Positions 18,068 through 36,163 of a DNA stretch of 37,919 nt are shown piece by piece. This stretch comes from Acidobacteriota bacterium (GTDB lineage Bacteria; Acidobacteriota; Aminicenantia; Aminicenantales; Saccharicenantaceae): positions 1 through 37,919 of the forward strand of contig JADBLN010000067.1 in NCBI GenBank assembly GCA_014894455.1, in the 5' to 3' direction. Made by a program: the position numbers and the translations under genes. Below the pieces are notes generated by a model, which was not told the origin of the DNA, made no database searches, and worked only from the letters and a program-made list of their open reading frames with translations. Position 1 is the stretch's first letter. Each line of letters begins with the position of its first letter.

Positions 18068-19279
18068 TCATGCTCCATCTATGTACAGGATCTCGACGTC
18101 CCGGCCTTTTTCGAGACGCGAAACGTCGGCCGGGACGACGATGAGGACGCGGCTGTGGACCATGGACCGCAGGACGCCGCTTTTCTGGTCGGCATAGGGC
18201 GCGACGTTGAGGACCGCGCCCTCTGCGTCGAGGACACCGCGCAGGAACTGCGTCCGCCCCGGCTTGAGGACGACGTCCTCCGCGAGGACCGCCCGGCCGC
18301 CGCTCGGGCCGGGGTTTGTCCGGCCGAGCATGCGCTCGACGGCCGGCCGGACGAAGAGGAGGAACGTGACCATGGCGCTCGTCGGGTTGCCCGGCAGTCC
18401 GAAGACGAGCTGGCTTCCGCGCCGGCCGAAGAAGACGGGCTTGCCCGGCTTGATCCGGACCTGCCAGAAAACGGGCCTGACTCCGGCCGTCCGGAGCTCG
18501 TCCTTGACCAGGTCGTAGTCGCCGACCGAGACTCCACCGGACAGGACCAGGATGTCCGCTCCTTTCGCCCGGGCGAGCTTGGCGCGGAGCGAGGAGCTCC
18601 TGTCCCGGGCGATGCCGAGATATTTTGCGTCCGCTCCAGTCCGAAGGGCCATGGCCAGGAGAGCGGGGCCGTTGGAGTTTCGGATCTGGCCGGGGCCTTT
18701 CCTATCGCCCGGCTCGACGATCTCGTCGCCCGTGGCGATGACGGCCAGCTTCGGGCGACTGACGACCGGGACGCGGGCGAGCCCTGCCGCGGCCAACAGG
18801 CCGGTCTCGGCCGGCCCGATGACCGCGCCCCCCTCGAGGACGAGTTCGCCTTTCTTGAGATCTTCGCCGGCTTGACCGATGTTGGCGCCGGGCCCGACCT
18901 CGCGGCGGACTTTGACGCGGCCGCCGGATTTCTCTGTATCCTCGACCATGACCACGGCGTCGGCGCCTTTCGGCAGGGGAGCCCCGGTCATGATGCGGAC
19001 GGCCTGTCCCGGACCGACGGATTTTCGGGAGATACGGCCCGCGGGCAGGTCCTCCGTGACCTCGAGCTCTACGGCATTGTCCCTTCCGGCCGCCCGGGTG
19101 TCCTCGGCCCTGACGGCGTATCCGTCCATCGTCGCCTTGGTGAACGGTGGAACGTTCTCGCGGGCCTTGATGTCCTTGGCCAGCGTCCTGCCCAGTGCCT
19201 CGGCCAGGAGGACGGACTCGGGTGGGAGTGTCTTGCCGGAGGAGAGGACGAGGCTGCGGGCTACTTCGTACTCAATCAC
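18068..19279 (-). CDS. moeA: Molybdopterin molybdenumtransferase
   Basis: PPFTKATMDGYAVRAED; RIMTGAPLPKGADAVVMVEDT; ILVLSGGVSVGDYDLV; GLPGNPTSAMVTFLLFVRP. GTG at 19279 (GTGATTGA overlap with tupC stop) is a likelier start than the track ATG at 19330. Confidence 0.93.
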   Translation of the reverse strand: MIEYEVARSLVLSSGKTLPPESVLLAEALGRTLAKDIKARENVPPFTKATMDGYAVRAEDTRAAGRDNAVELEVTEDLPAGRISRKSVGPGQAVRIMTGAPLPKGADAVVMVEDTEKSGGRVKVRREVGPGANIGQAGEDLKKGELVLEGGAVIGPAETGLLAAAGLARVPVVSRPKLAVIATGDEIVEPGDRKGPGQIRNSNGPALLAMALRTGADAKYLGIARDRSSSLRAKLARAKGADILVLSGGVSVGDYDLVKDELRTAGVRPVFWQVRIKPGKPVFFGRRGSQLVFGLPGNPTSAMVTFLLFVRPAVERMLGRTNPGPSGGRAVLAEDVVLKPGRTQFLRGVLDAEGAVLNVAPYADQKSGVLRSMVHSRVLIVVPADVSRLEKGRDVEILYIDGA

Positions 19280-20336
19280 GAGGGTTTCCAGGCGTTCTTG
19301 GTCCGACGATCTTGACGGATTCAGGCTCAAATCTTAGCAGAACGTCCCGGGAAAGGGAAATGCCCTTGGCCTCGAGTTCGGCGACGGGCAGGGCAATACG
19401 GAACGTCAGACTGCCGCTCGCCCGGACGAGGGCCGTCGCCGCGTCCGTCGTCTCCATCCGGGTAACCCTGCCGCCGAAGACGTTCCGGCCGGGTGAGGGC
19501 TCCGCGGCTTCGCCTGCGGCGAACAATCGGATGTCCGCGGGGTTGATGACGCAGGTCACGTGACCGCGCGTCTCGCCGGGAAAGAAAATCCTGACGCCGG
19601 GCCGCGGCTCGATCCAGCTTCGCCGGCCGTCGGTCGCGGCCGTCCCGCTGAAGCAGTTTTCGTGGCTGAATTCGACACGCCGGCCGTCCGAGAGATAGAG
19701 GATGTCGTCGGCCAGGCGCGAGGCCTGGGAGAAGTTGTGGGTCGAGAAGACGACGGTCGTTCCCGATTCGCGGCTGACCTCGCGGAGGACGGCCTCCATC
19801 CGCAGGCCGAGGCCGGCGTCGATGTTGGCCGTCGGCTCGTCGAGGAGGAGGACCCGGGGCCTGAGGGCCAGGGCCCGGGCCAAGGCCACGCGCTGGGCCT
19901 GACCCGCGCTCAATCCCAAGACAGATTTTTTCTCCCAGCCCTCGAGCTCGACGAGGGCCAGGGCGGAGCGGAGCCGCGCCGGCCACTCCGCCTCCGGGAT
20001 GTTCCTGAGCCTGAGTCCGAACGACAAATTGTCGGCGACCGTCCCCTTGAAAAGGTAGGGATGATGGGTCACCAGGACCGCGTCCCGGCGGGCCCTGACG
20101 ACGCTCGCCTCGTTTGCCCAGGGGTCGCCGCCCAGGAATTCCAGCCGTCCCCGGCCGGGCCGGGCGAGAAAGGCCAGGAGCATCAGGAGGGTTGTTTTTC
20201 CCGCCCCATTGGGGCCGACGAGGGCCAGGATTTCGCCGGGGCCGACGCGGAGGGACTCGAGCTCGAGAGAGAAGGATGAGACCGGGCCGCGATAGGCGTA
20301 GCCCATGTCATCGAGCTTGTAGACGAATTCGTTCAT
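19272..20336 (-). CDS. tupC: ABC transporter ATP-binding protein, tungstate/molybdate type with TOBE-like C-terminus
   Basis: LVGPNGAGKTTLLMLLAFLARPGRG; LSAGQAQRVALARALALRPRVLLLDEPTANID; start MNEFVYKLDDMGYAYRG. Confidence 0.88.
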   Translation of the reverse strand: MNEFVYKLDDMGYAYRGPVSSFSLELESLRVGPGEILALVGPNGAGKTTLLMLLAFLARPGRGRLEFLGGDPWANEASVVRARRDAVLVTHHPYLFKGTVADNLSFGLRLRNIPEAEWPARLRSALALVELEGWEKKSVLGLSAGQAQRVALARALALRPRVLLLDEPTANIDAGLGLRMEAVLREVSRESGTTVVFSTHNFSQASRLADDILYLSDGRRVEFSHENCFSGTAATDGRRSWIEPRPGVRIFFPGETRGHVTCVINPADIRLFAAGEAAEPSPGRNVFGGRVTRMETTDAATALVRASGSLTFRIALPVAELEAKGISLSRDVLLRFEPESVKIVGPRTPGNPRD

Positions 20337-20337
20337 C

Positions 20338-20988
20338 TCAATCCTTGTCCTTGCCCCGGAGCCCCGTCTGGACGAGGAGGTTGATGCCGAGGGTGATGAC
20401 AAGAAGGACCGCGCCCAGGACGATGCCGTTCCGGAATTCCCCCTTGGCCGTTTCGAGGGCGATCGAGGTCGTGATGTTCCTGGTGGCGTTGCGGATGTTG
20501 CCGCCGAGCATCATGGCGATGCCGACTTCCGAGATGGCCCGGGCGAAACCGGCCAGGACGGCGATGAGCAGGGCGTACTTCGCCTCGCGGAGGACGACCC
20601 AGCCGGCCTGGCGGGGTGTGGCGCCCAGGGCGAGGGCGGTCAGGCGGGCGCGCTTGTCGACCTGGCGGAGGGCGGTGTACGAGAAACCGACGATGAGCGG
20701 CAGGATGAGGAAGACCTGGCCGACGGTCATGGCCGCCTGGGTGTAGAGGAGCCCCAAGCCGCCGAACGGGCCGCTCCGGCTGAGGAGCGAATAGAAGAGG
20801 AGGCCGATGACGACGGTCGGGGCGGCCATCCAGGTTTGATTGATGAGCAGAACGAGCCTTTTGCCGCGGAAGTCCCGTCCGGCGAGGAAGAGCGCGGCCG
20901 GGACGGCGATGGCGCTGGCGATGAGGGCCGCCAGCCCGCTCGTCTTGAGCGAAACCCAGATGGCCAGGGCGAGTTCGCGGAAGATCAT
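20338..20988 (-). CDS. tupB: ABC transporter permease, tungstate type
   Basis: GLLFYSLLSRSGPFGGLGLLYTQAAMTVGQVFLILPLIVGF; ALALGATPRQAGWVVLREAKYALLIAVLAGFARAISEVGIAMMLGGNI (permease EAA-like loop). Confidence 0.9.
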   Translation of the reverse strand: MIFRELALAIWVSLKTSGLAALIASAIAVPAALFLAGRDFRGKRLVLLINQTWMAAPTVVIGLLFYSLLSRSGPFGGLGLLYTQAAMTVGQVFLILPLIVGFSYTALRQVDKRARLTALALGATPRQAGWVVLREAKYALLIAVLAGFARAISEVGIAMMLGGNIRNATRNITTSIALETAKGEFRNGIVLGAVLLVITLGINLLVQTGLRGKDKD

Positions 20989-21899
20989 TTGACGAGGTCC
21001 ACACCGGGGGTCGCAGCCATCGGTTCGAAGAGCGGCCGTCCGCTTTTTCCCCTGAACTCTCCGATGAGCTGTTGGCCGTACGGCGAAGTGAGGAAGGCGA
21101 TGAAGGCCATGGCCTCGCCGTAGCGGGCCGTGGGGATGCGGGCCGGATTGACGGCGATGACGGAGTAGATGTTCTCGAGCTCGGGGGCGTTTTCGTAGAC
21201 GGGCTTGAGCCCGGTGAGCCCCTGAAGCCCGTAAAACGTCGCGGTGTCCGTCAGCGTGTAGCCGCGTCTTTCGGCGGCGATGCGCAAGGTTTCGGCCATG
21301 CCCTGGCCTGTTTCGAGGTAAGCGGTTTCCGGCTTGCCGCTGGCCAGGGCCCAGAGGTCGAGCTCGCGCGTGTGCGTGCCGGACTTATCGCCGCGGCTGA
21401 CGAACGGAACCCCGCTCGATTTGACGCGGCCGAGGGCTTCCGCCGCCGAGGATGAGCCGGCGGCGTGAGCGGGGTCGTCGACGGGCCCGACGATCATGAA
21501 ATAGTTTCGGGCGATCACCCGGCGGTTGACGCCGTAGCCGTCCCGGAGGAATTCGTCCTCGAGTTTTTTAGCGTGGACGATGACGACGTCGGCGTTCCCG
21601 TCCCGGGCCTGCTTGAGGGCGGCGCCGGTCCCGACCGCGATCCACTTGAGCGCGATCCCCGTGTCCTTCTTGAAAGCGTCGGCGAGGACGTCGAGGAGGC
21701 CCGTGGCATCGACGCTCGTCGTCGTGGCCAGCATAAGGCTTCGTTCGCTGATCGGGCTGATCGGGGACATGCACCGGAGGGACATGTCCCTCCGGTACGT
21801 GTCCCCATTCTTGGCCGAGAGCGTGGAACATAATATCAGGGCGATAACTATGGTCAAAGGGAAAAGGCGTTGACGACCCGGGAGAGAGAGGCGGCGCAC
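20985..21899 (-). CDS. tupA: Tungstate ABC transporter substrate-binding protein, with hairpin-encoded N-terminal insert
   Basis: LMLATTTSVDATGLLDVLADAFKKDTGIALKWIAVGTGAALKQARDGNADVVIVHAKK; SRGDKSGTHTRELDLW. GTG start at 21899, SD AAAAGGAG. Confidence 0.92.
   Translation of the reverse strand: MRRLSLPGRQRLFPLTIVIALILCSTLSAKNGDTYRRDMSLRCMSPISPISERSLMLATTTSVDATGLLDVLADAFKKDTGIALKWIAVGTGAALKQARDGNADVVIVHAKKLEDEFLRDGYGVNRRVIARNYFMIVGPVDDPAHAAGSSSAAEALGRVKSSGVPFVSRGDKSGTHTRELDLWALASGKPETAYLETGQGMAETLRIAAERRGYTLTDTATFYGLQGLTGLKPVYENAPELENIYSVIAVNPARIPTARYGEAMAFIAFLTSPYGQQLIGEFRGKSGRPLFEPMAATPGVDLVK
21763..21812 (-). repeat. Family A REP-like hairpin copy A1, inside tupA CDS
   Basis: Minus strand: AAGAATGGGGACACGTACCGGAGGGACATGTCCCTCCGGTGCATGTCCCC; contains a perfect 24-nt palindrome ACCGGAGGGACATGTCCCTCCGGT. 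Confidence 0.85.
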
Positions 21900-21913
21900 G
21901 GTGTCTCCTTTTC

Positions 21914-22010
21914 GAATACGGAAGGAGGAGCCGTTTCCCGCTCCTCCCTAACGGTCGAAGGGCCTGGCCGTCCCGGCTGTAGCTCTTTCGACTCGGAGCA
22001 CCGTCTTAGA
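21914..22010 (-). ncRNA. Molybdenum/tungsten cofactor (Moco/Tuco) riboswitch candidate upstream of tupA
   Basis: Minus strand: AAGACGGTGCTCCGAG...CCAGGCCC...TTAGGGAGGAGCGGGAAACGGCTCCTCCTTCCGTATTCGAAAAGGAG. Matches, from recall, the E. coli moaA leader pattern ACGGTGCT...GGGCGAAGGAAGAAATGACTTCGCCTCCCGTATCTGGAAAGGTG; ACGG/CCGT closing stem, GGAGGAGC hairpin, RBS just 3'. Confidence 0.75.
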
Positions 22011-22140: not shown

Positions 22141-22186
22141 GGGGACATGCTCCGCTTCTCTTGAAGCGGTGCGTGTCCCCGTTCTT
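22141..22186 (-). repeat. Family A REP-like hairpin copy A2
   Basis: Minus strand: AAGAACGGGGACACGCACCGCTTCAAGAGAAGCGGAGCATGTCCCC; overlaps dusB stop codon TAA. Confidence 0.85.
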
Positions 22187-26865: not shown

Positions 26866-26920
26866 AAGAATGGGGACACGCCCTAAAGGGCCTTTACCGG
26901 GCCCTTTAGGACATGTCCCC
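26866..26920 (+). repeat. Family A REP-like hairpin copy A3, plus half copy at 26936-26950
   Basis: AAGAATGGGGACACGCCCTAAAGGGCCTTTACCGGGCCCTTTAGGACATGTCCCC; a minus-strand half copy GGGGACATGCACGTG overlaps the pdxJ stop. Confidence 0.85.
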
Positions 26921-33334: not shown

Positions 33335-33369
33335 GGGGACATGTACTCTTTGTACGTGTCCCCATTCTT
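33335..33369 (-). repeat. Family A REP-like hairpin copy A4 upstream of ftsH
   Basis: Minus strand: AAGAATGGGGACACGTACAAAGAGTACATGTCCCC. Confidence 0.85.
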
Positions 33370-36132: not shown

Positions 36133-36163
36133 GGGGACGCGTACCGGGGGGACATGTCCCCGG
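36133..36163 (+). repeat. Degenerate family A hairpin copy A5 upstream of symporter gene
   Basis: GGGGACGCGTACCGGGGGGACATGTCCCCGG, with core palindrome GGGGACATGTCCCC. Confidence 0.6.

Follow-up and report, generated by a model that had tools for sequence, protein, structure and literature searches.

Palindromic repeats within protein-coding genes have been described previously. The Rickettsia palindromic elements (RPEs) are reported as in-frame palindromes that occur and are tolerated in many unrelated genes (PMC10969869, PMC3733652). The intragenic GTAG/CGTC REPs belong to repeats that are mostly intergenic, and some are found in frame, including in DnaE/DnaE2 and tRNA-modification genes; a same-site intragenic case is documented for recB of Xanthomonas (PMC3733652). 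Here, a REP-like palindrome is described within tupA of the source genome (G000), a 96% complete draft of 125 contigs from a Candidatus Aminicenantes genus of the Acidobacteriota. The database records of the orthologous loci identify them as Candidatus Aminicenantes metagenome assemblies. The window, which is the whole stretch of DNA that was analysed, has a length of 37,919 nucleotides, and the features of its tup region are as follows.

19272 to 20402, minus strand: tupC, ABC ATPase (ABC_tran); limits of the open reading frame, the true start may lie downstream
20338 to 20988, minus strand: tupB, ABC permease (BPD_transp_1), overlapping the stop codon of tupA
20985 to 21746, minus strand: mature TupA domain and stop codon; residue 53 opens the first strand in the model, and homology to PDB structures begins at residue 52
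21747 to 21812, minus strand: segment of 66 nt (22 codons), KNGDTYRRDMSLRCMSPISPIS, with no counterpart in the sister species G004 in the orthologue alignment
21763 to 21806, minus strand: REP-like palindrome, 44 bp, GGGGACACG...CATGTCCCC, giving (N)GDTYRRDMSLRCMSP in the tupA frame
21807 to 21812, minus strand: tag AAGAAT; the family has AAGAAN conserved at this 5' position
21813 to 21899, minus strand: predicted signal peptide MRRLSLPGRQRLFPLTIVIALILCSTLSA, with a GTG start at 21897 to 21899; cleavage site predicted from the sequence
21889 to 22010, minus strand: molybdenum/tungsten cofactor (Moco/Tuco) riboswitch RF01055, upstream of tupA (61.9 bits, E 1.1e-12)
21905 to 21910, minus strand: Shine-Dalgarno sequence AAGGAG, 5 nt 5' of the GTG start, conserved in the orthologues of the genus

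Positions 21763 to 21812 on the minus strand constitute one complete element, a 44-bp hairpin with its 6-nt tag AAGAAT, because the tupA copy carries a tag of the AAGAAN type. A folding energy of -47.7 kcal/mol was obtained for the hairpin in an 81-nt stretch (z = -5.7), and none of 200 shuffles was equally good. The hairpin is located approximately 90 nt past the start codon and 3' of the riboswitch, and the tupA open reading frame (20985 to 21899, minus strand) continues through it with zero stops. The hairpin in tupA is real and non-random, and its in-frame placement is confirmed; the sequence, coordinates, and frame given in the initial annotation are all correct, and its description of a complete hairpin agrees with the tag and with a fold far below the shuffles. 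The 66-nt segment is composed of the 50-bp element and a 16-nt flank at 21747 to 21762 (GATCAGCCCGATCAGC), which is an imperfect 9-bp tandem duplication. The 50-bp element on its own does not preserve the frame; the net 66 nt with the flank does. A frame-preserving gap of about 45-55 nt had been anticipated in the relatives, and the gap relative to G004 preserves the frame but is longer, at 66 nt.

The TupA protein consists of a signal-peptide-like stretch ending in ...ILCSTLSA, followed by KNGDTYRRDMSLRCMSPISPIS and the conserved ERSLMLATTTSVDATGLLD. The NCBIfam TupA model NF041772 matches residues 51-296 with 219.7 bits and so falls short of its strict equivalog cut-off, which is 400 bits. 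Pfam PBP_like_2 gives a good match. TupA is defined as a tungstate ABC transporter substrate-binding protein encoded in an operon with a permease and an ATPase, and this arrangement is present here. PDB homology starts at residue 52-54, with 3lr1 as the best match (E 2e-61). In the AlphaFold model, the pLDDT is ~51-60 for residues 1-50 and >90 from approximately residue 51, and the first strand appears at residue 53. The TupA fold begins just after the hairpin, and the start of the conserved domain after the insert bears out the original placement of the hairpin between signal peptide and mature domain. A lipobox is not fitted by LILC, and a type I signal peptide was assumed for TupA rather than a lipoprotein; cleavage is predicted to occur after LSA. 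The initial annotation had also raised a later true start with its own signal peptide. A downstream start codon was excluded, as the riboswitch, the Shine-Dalgarno sequence, and the upstream GTG or TTG start are common to the orthologues, and no signal-peptide-like sequence was seen 3' of the hairpin in tupA. The tupA frame is intact over 304 codons, as are tupB and tupC. The dN/dS of mature TupA is 0.21 for G000 versus G004, and the mature domain is under purifying selection.

The element is a member of a GGGGACA...TGTCCCC palindromic repeat family with approximately 94 copies in the genome. The pattern GGGGACANG-N4-34-CNTGTCCCC gives 94 copies in G000 versus 0 for the reversed control pattern, and the polar form GGGGACACG...CATGTCCCC is found in 86 of these. 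The lengths among oriented, aligned copies are mostly 29-52 bp (29 bp, n = 49; 49 bp, n = 13; 40 bp, n = 8). The 5' flank has the consensus AAGAAN: at each of the positions -6 to -2 (A, A, G, A, and A), 63-80 of 88 copies agree. The 3' flank shows a weak NTTCTT. Eight pattern matches (four sites on two strands) are obtained in the window versus 0.00 in shuffles. The copies other than that in tupA are listed below.

22141 to 22180, minus strand: second copy, 40 bp, intergenic between dus and tup
26872 to 26920, plus strand: family member, 49 bp, intergenic
33335 to 33363, minus strand: family member, 29 bp, upstream of ftsH

A degenerate copy is located at 36133 to 36161 of the window, where the CATGTCCCC end provides an ATG in frame with a sodium/solute symporter reading frame from 36154 onward; the symporter start at 36154 may overlap the degenerate repeat. 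On another contig of the genome (C5, L046 2394-2674), two 52-bp hairpins with near-identical flanks are 229 bp apart and were apparently duplicated together. The number of copies per genome across the genus ranges from 4 to 94. At least one match to a loose pattern, which also includes a related GGGGACAGG form, appears in 43 of the 79 genomes examined in the order. Hairpins of this related form, GGGGACAGG...CCTGTCCCC, whose stems are rich in A/T, were observed in G063, G069, and G048, from other families of the order.

The tupA copy was initially treated as a single curiosity, a view that did not survive the survey of other genes: in-frame copies are a genus-wide pattern. The family is found in frame in TsaD, a DnaE-like polymerase, PgeF, a UbiE-type methyltransferase, and a GH38 alpha-mannosidase, with the protein families confirmed by Pfam. 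TsaD is a universally conserved tRNA-modification enzyme. A loop insert in the G000 protein provides 19 residues more than in G004 (contig C58, L069 2020-2066), and in TsaD of G005 this loop holds three copies (L114); the dN/dS of TsaD is 0.06 for G000 versus G004. An AlphaFold model of TsaD (11 sequences) had a mean pLDDT of 59 and was discarded as uninformative on the insert. The DnaE-like polymerase of G000 contains two in-frame hairpins just after the PHP domain (contig C53, L066 1981-2196), and approximately 60 residues of this insert region are missing in G004 and relatives. The same insert adds low-complexity residues, GDSPSGDVPPSGG..., which may represent another repeat family.

PgeF of G000 has 33 residues more than that of G004, with a repeat copy at L058 1994-2042. 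An RGHVPxVHVP segment is common to PgeF of several species (orthologues L144-L154), and the form RGHVPEVHVP of several relatives is exactly the peptide given by the repeat in one frame. From this match, RGHVPxVHVP is probably an old repeat-derived segment that was kept across the genus. In the UbiE-type methyltransferase of G000, a copy is located directly after DVCCGTG, and the G006 orthologue has two copies. The GH38 alpha-mannosidase, encoded just outside the window (G000 C79:36000-42400, L079 3615-4394), contains at least three in-frame hairpins, and the G010 enzyme has repeats at the same sites (L169). Two GH38 copies, one on the same contig as tupA and the other in G010, each differ from the 44-bp tupA copy by a single base. 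These near-identical copies are read in all three frames, as GDTYRRDMSLRCMSP (tupA), GTRTGGTCPSGACP (GH38, G000), and GHVPERHVPPVHVP (GH38, G010).

Approximately 9 of the 93 copies read (~10%) are coding, versus ~89% coding DNA in the window; the fraction of 0.89 is the window value and not a genome-wide one, and the copies were judged from the stretches around the repeats. From this difference, insertions into genes are mostly purged, and in-frame ones at loops and termini survive. The surviving coding copies are located at termini or in length-variable segments. All six frames are open in 58% of the copies; the corresponding values are 22% for flanking stretches and 6% for shuffles. Coding was called with a model against noncoding triplets together with stop checks, as codon-usage log-odds against background were too weak. 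The TsaD, second DnaE-like, and some of the GH38 copies were overlooked by the triplet model and recovered by reading of open frames and orthologue alignment. The preferred reading, to which we assign a probability of approximately 0.85, is that a mobile REP-like palindrome adds short peptides to working proteins, TupA included.

The hairpin is missing from 7 of the 11 tupA orthologues. The nearest, those of G004, G001, and G011, have mature TupA domains that are 93, 87, and 86% identical, and all three pass from the signal peptide to the mature domain without the hairpin segment, as expected from the initial annotation. The N-terminus of the sister species G004 (mature TupA 92.9% identical) reads ...SPVLPA-ERSLM and is free of the insert. 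The exact insertion joint is uncertain because the G000 and G004 signal peptides are barely alignable, and the N-terminal DNA alignment is too divergent to fix it. At the same site and in the same frame, tupA of G008 has one hairpin copy, SDGDTYQTYMSPRAAA, and tupA of G006 has two, KKGDTYPRHMSP... and DNGDTSQGHRPP. TupA of G012 has NEDTPPNMAP at the insert site, likely a decayed copy. A segment of similar length without the palindrome, the outcome proposed earlier as evidence against insertion, is absent from the nearest three orthologues but present in the distant G003, G009, and L139, whose linkers of ~20-28 residues have no intact hairpin. Because of these linkers, the boundary between signal peptide and domain varies in length even without the hairpin. 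A tree of TupA alone was poorly resolved, and a four-gene concatenation was used in its place. G000 and G004 are sisters in this tree, the hairpin carriers are scattered, and several nodes are weak; independent gains, or one gain with many losses, are both possible.

The strongest competing explanation, possible though less likely than not, is that the tupA hairpin is an ancestral trait of the genus that was lost by G004 and others. In favour of it, the hairpins of G000, G008, and G006 agree in site, orientation, and frame, and G012 has the putative relic, but the hairpin loops differ among species (CCGGAGGGACATGTCCCTCCGG, CCAAACG, and CCCGAGG). Similarly, the TsaD insert frame is common to G000 and the outgroup G010 and missing in G004, which therefore points to loss in G004. 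One gain of the tupA hairpin, however, needs approximately five losses versus three or four gains on a tree with several weak nodes, and the single-base distance from the GH38 copies suggests that the tupA copy is young.

It is unlikely that the element is kept as useful, with the mRNA hairpin or the N-terminal tail regulating or tuning TupA. The same site and frame in three species would have a probability of ~1/36 if the insertions were independent and random over six frames, and a very stable hairpin ~90 nt after the start and 3' of the riboswitch is suggestive of a role. Neither the sequence nor the length of the tail is conserved among the orthologues, however, most of which have no hairpin, and the same repeats are found in unrelated cytosolic enzymes in all frames. 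An assembly artefact or pseudogene is highly improbable: although the draft has 125 contigs with N gaps close to stretches rich in repeats, the element spans a mere 44 bp and no gap is nearby, the same arrangement appears in independent assemblies of other species, and the frame of 304 codons, the intact tupB and tupC, and the dN/dS of 0.21 argue for a working gene.

For the preferred reading of a mobile palindrome that adds peptides, a small repeat of the form AAGAAN plus GGGGACACG-core-CATGTCCCC would have spread through Candidatus Aminicenantes genomes. Gene-breaking copies would be removed by selection, and those that enter a flexible boundary and add a multiple of three nucleotides overall would survive. 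In-frame copies may persist because most versions are stop-free in most frames, so that only a hydrophilic peptide is added. The tupA copy would place ~22 residues after the export signal and ahead of the tungstate-binding domain; once the signal is cleaved off, these would form a flexible N-terminal tail with the transport function kept. Four points here are inferred: translation of the tail, its persistence in the cleaved protein, its neutrality, and transposition as the way in which the repeats move. The original suggestion of a repeat adding protein sequence at a tolerant boundary is supported by its absence from the sister species and by the start of the domain after the insert.

A bolder and less probable reading is that the palindromes have been shaped for compatibility with proteins, with few stops in either orientation in most frames, such that a selfish repeat colonises even essential genes and repeatedly extends the same loops and termini across species. 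If true, such palindromes would quite generally supply new segments to Aminicenantes proteins, and some of these, such as GHVPxVHVP of PgeF, would have been kept across the genus. As individual sites are filled in some species and empty in others, direct tests can be made of how repeat-derived peptides are gained, lost, tolerated, and possibly domesticated. Annotators of these genomes should be aware that an apparently 'extended' N-terminus or a loop insert can stem from a repeat.

GTAG or CGTC REPs are associated with a cognate Y1 transposase (RAYT) gene that the repeat flanks. No Y1_Tnp (PF01797) was found in the 96% complete G000, and at the six Y1_Tnp loci read in relatives no complete hairpin of the family lies on either side; a cognate transposase may still lie in the missing part of the assembly or at other Y1 loci. 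No prior description of the repeat in Aminicenantes was found in the limited literature searched. The family is described as working like RPE or intragenic REP elements and is not filed as a member of either, because GTAG/CGTC tags are absent and no flanking transposase was found.

The TupA proteins of PDB 3lr1 and 5my5 have the same domain, with homology from residue 52-54 onward, and the TupA described here differs by 22 additional residues, encoded by the repeat segment, that separate the signal peptide from the domain. The family resembles the GTAG/CGTC REPs as a short palindrome with many dispersed copies that are mostly intergenic (94 copies, ~10% coding), but it has AAGAAN as its flank and neither tetranucleotide at its end. 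Protein-coding palindromes are best known from Rickettsia, and the present case is from a distant phylum with many related species. The RPEs of the first report, from Ogata et al. in 2000 and followed by a later RPE report in 2002, were reportedly ~150 bp. As for the RPEs, the palindromes are in frame in unrelated protein genes and absent from orthologues, here for TupA, TsaD, the DnaE-like polymerase, and PgeF. This likeness is one of behaviour, and sequence homology to RPE families would not be expected: the RPEs of that first report are ~150 bp and from an intracellular alphaproteobacterium, whereas the repeats here are 29-52 bp with an AAGAA tag, from Acidobacteriota, and differ further in that all three frames are represented among copies that are nearly identical.
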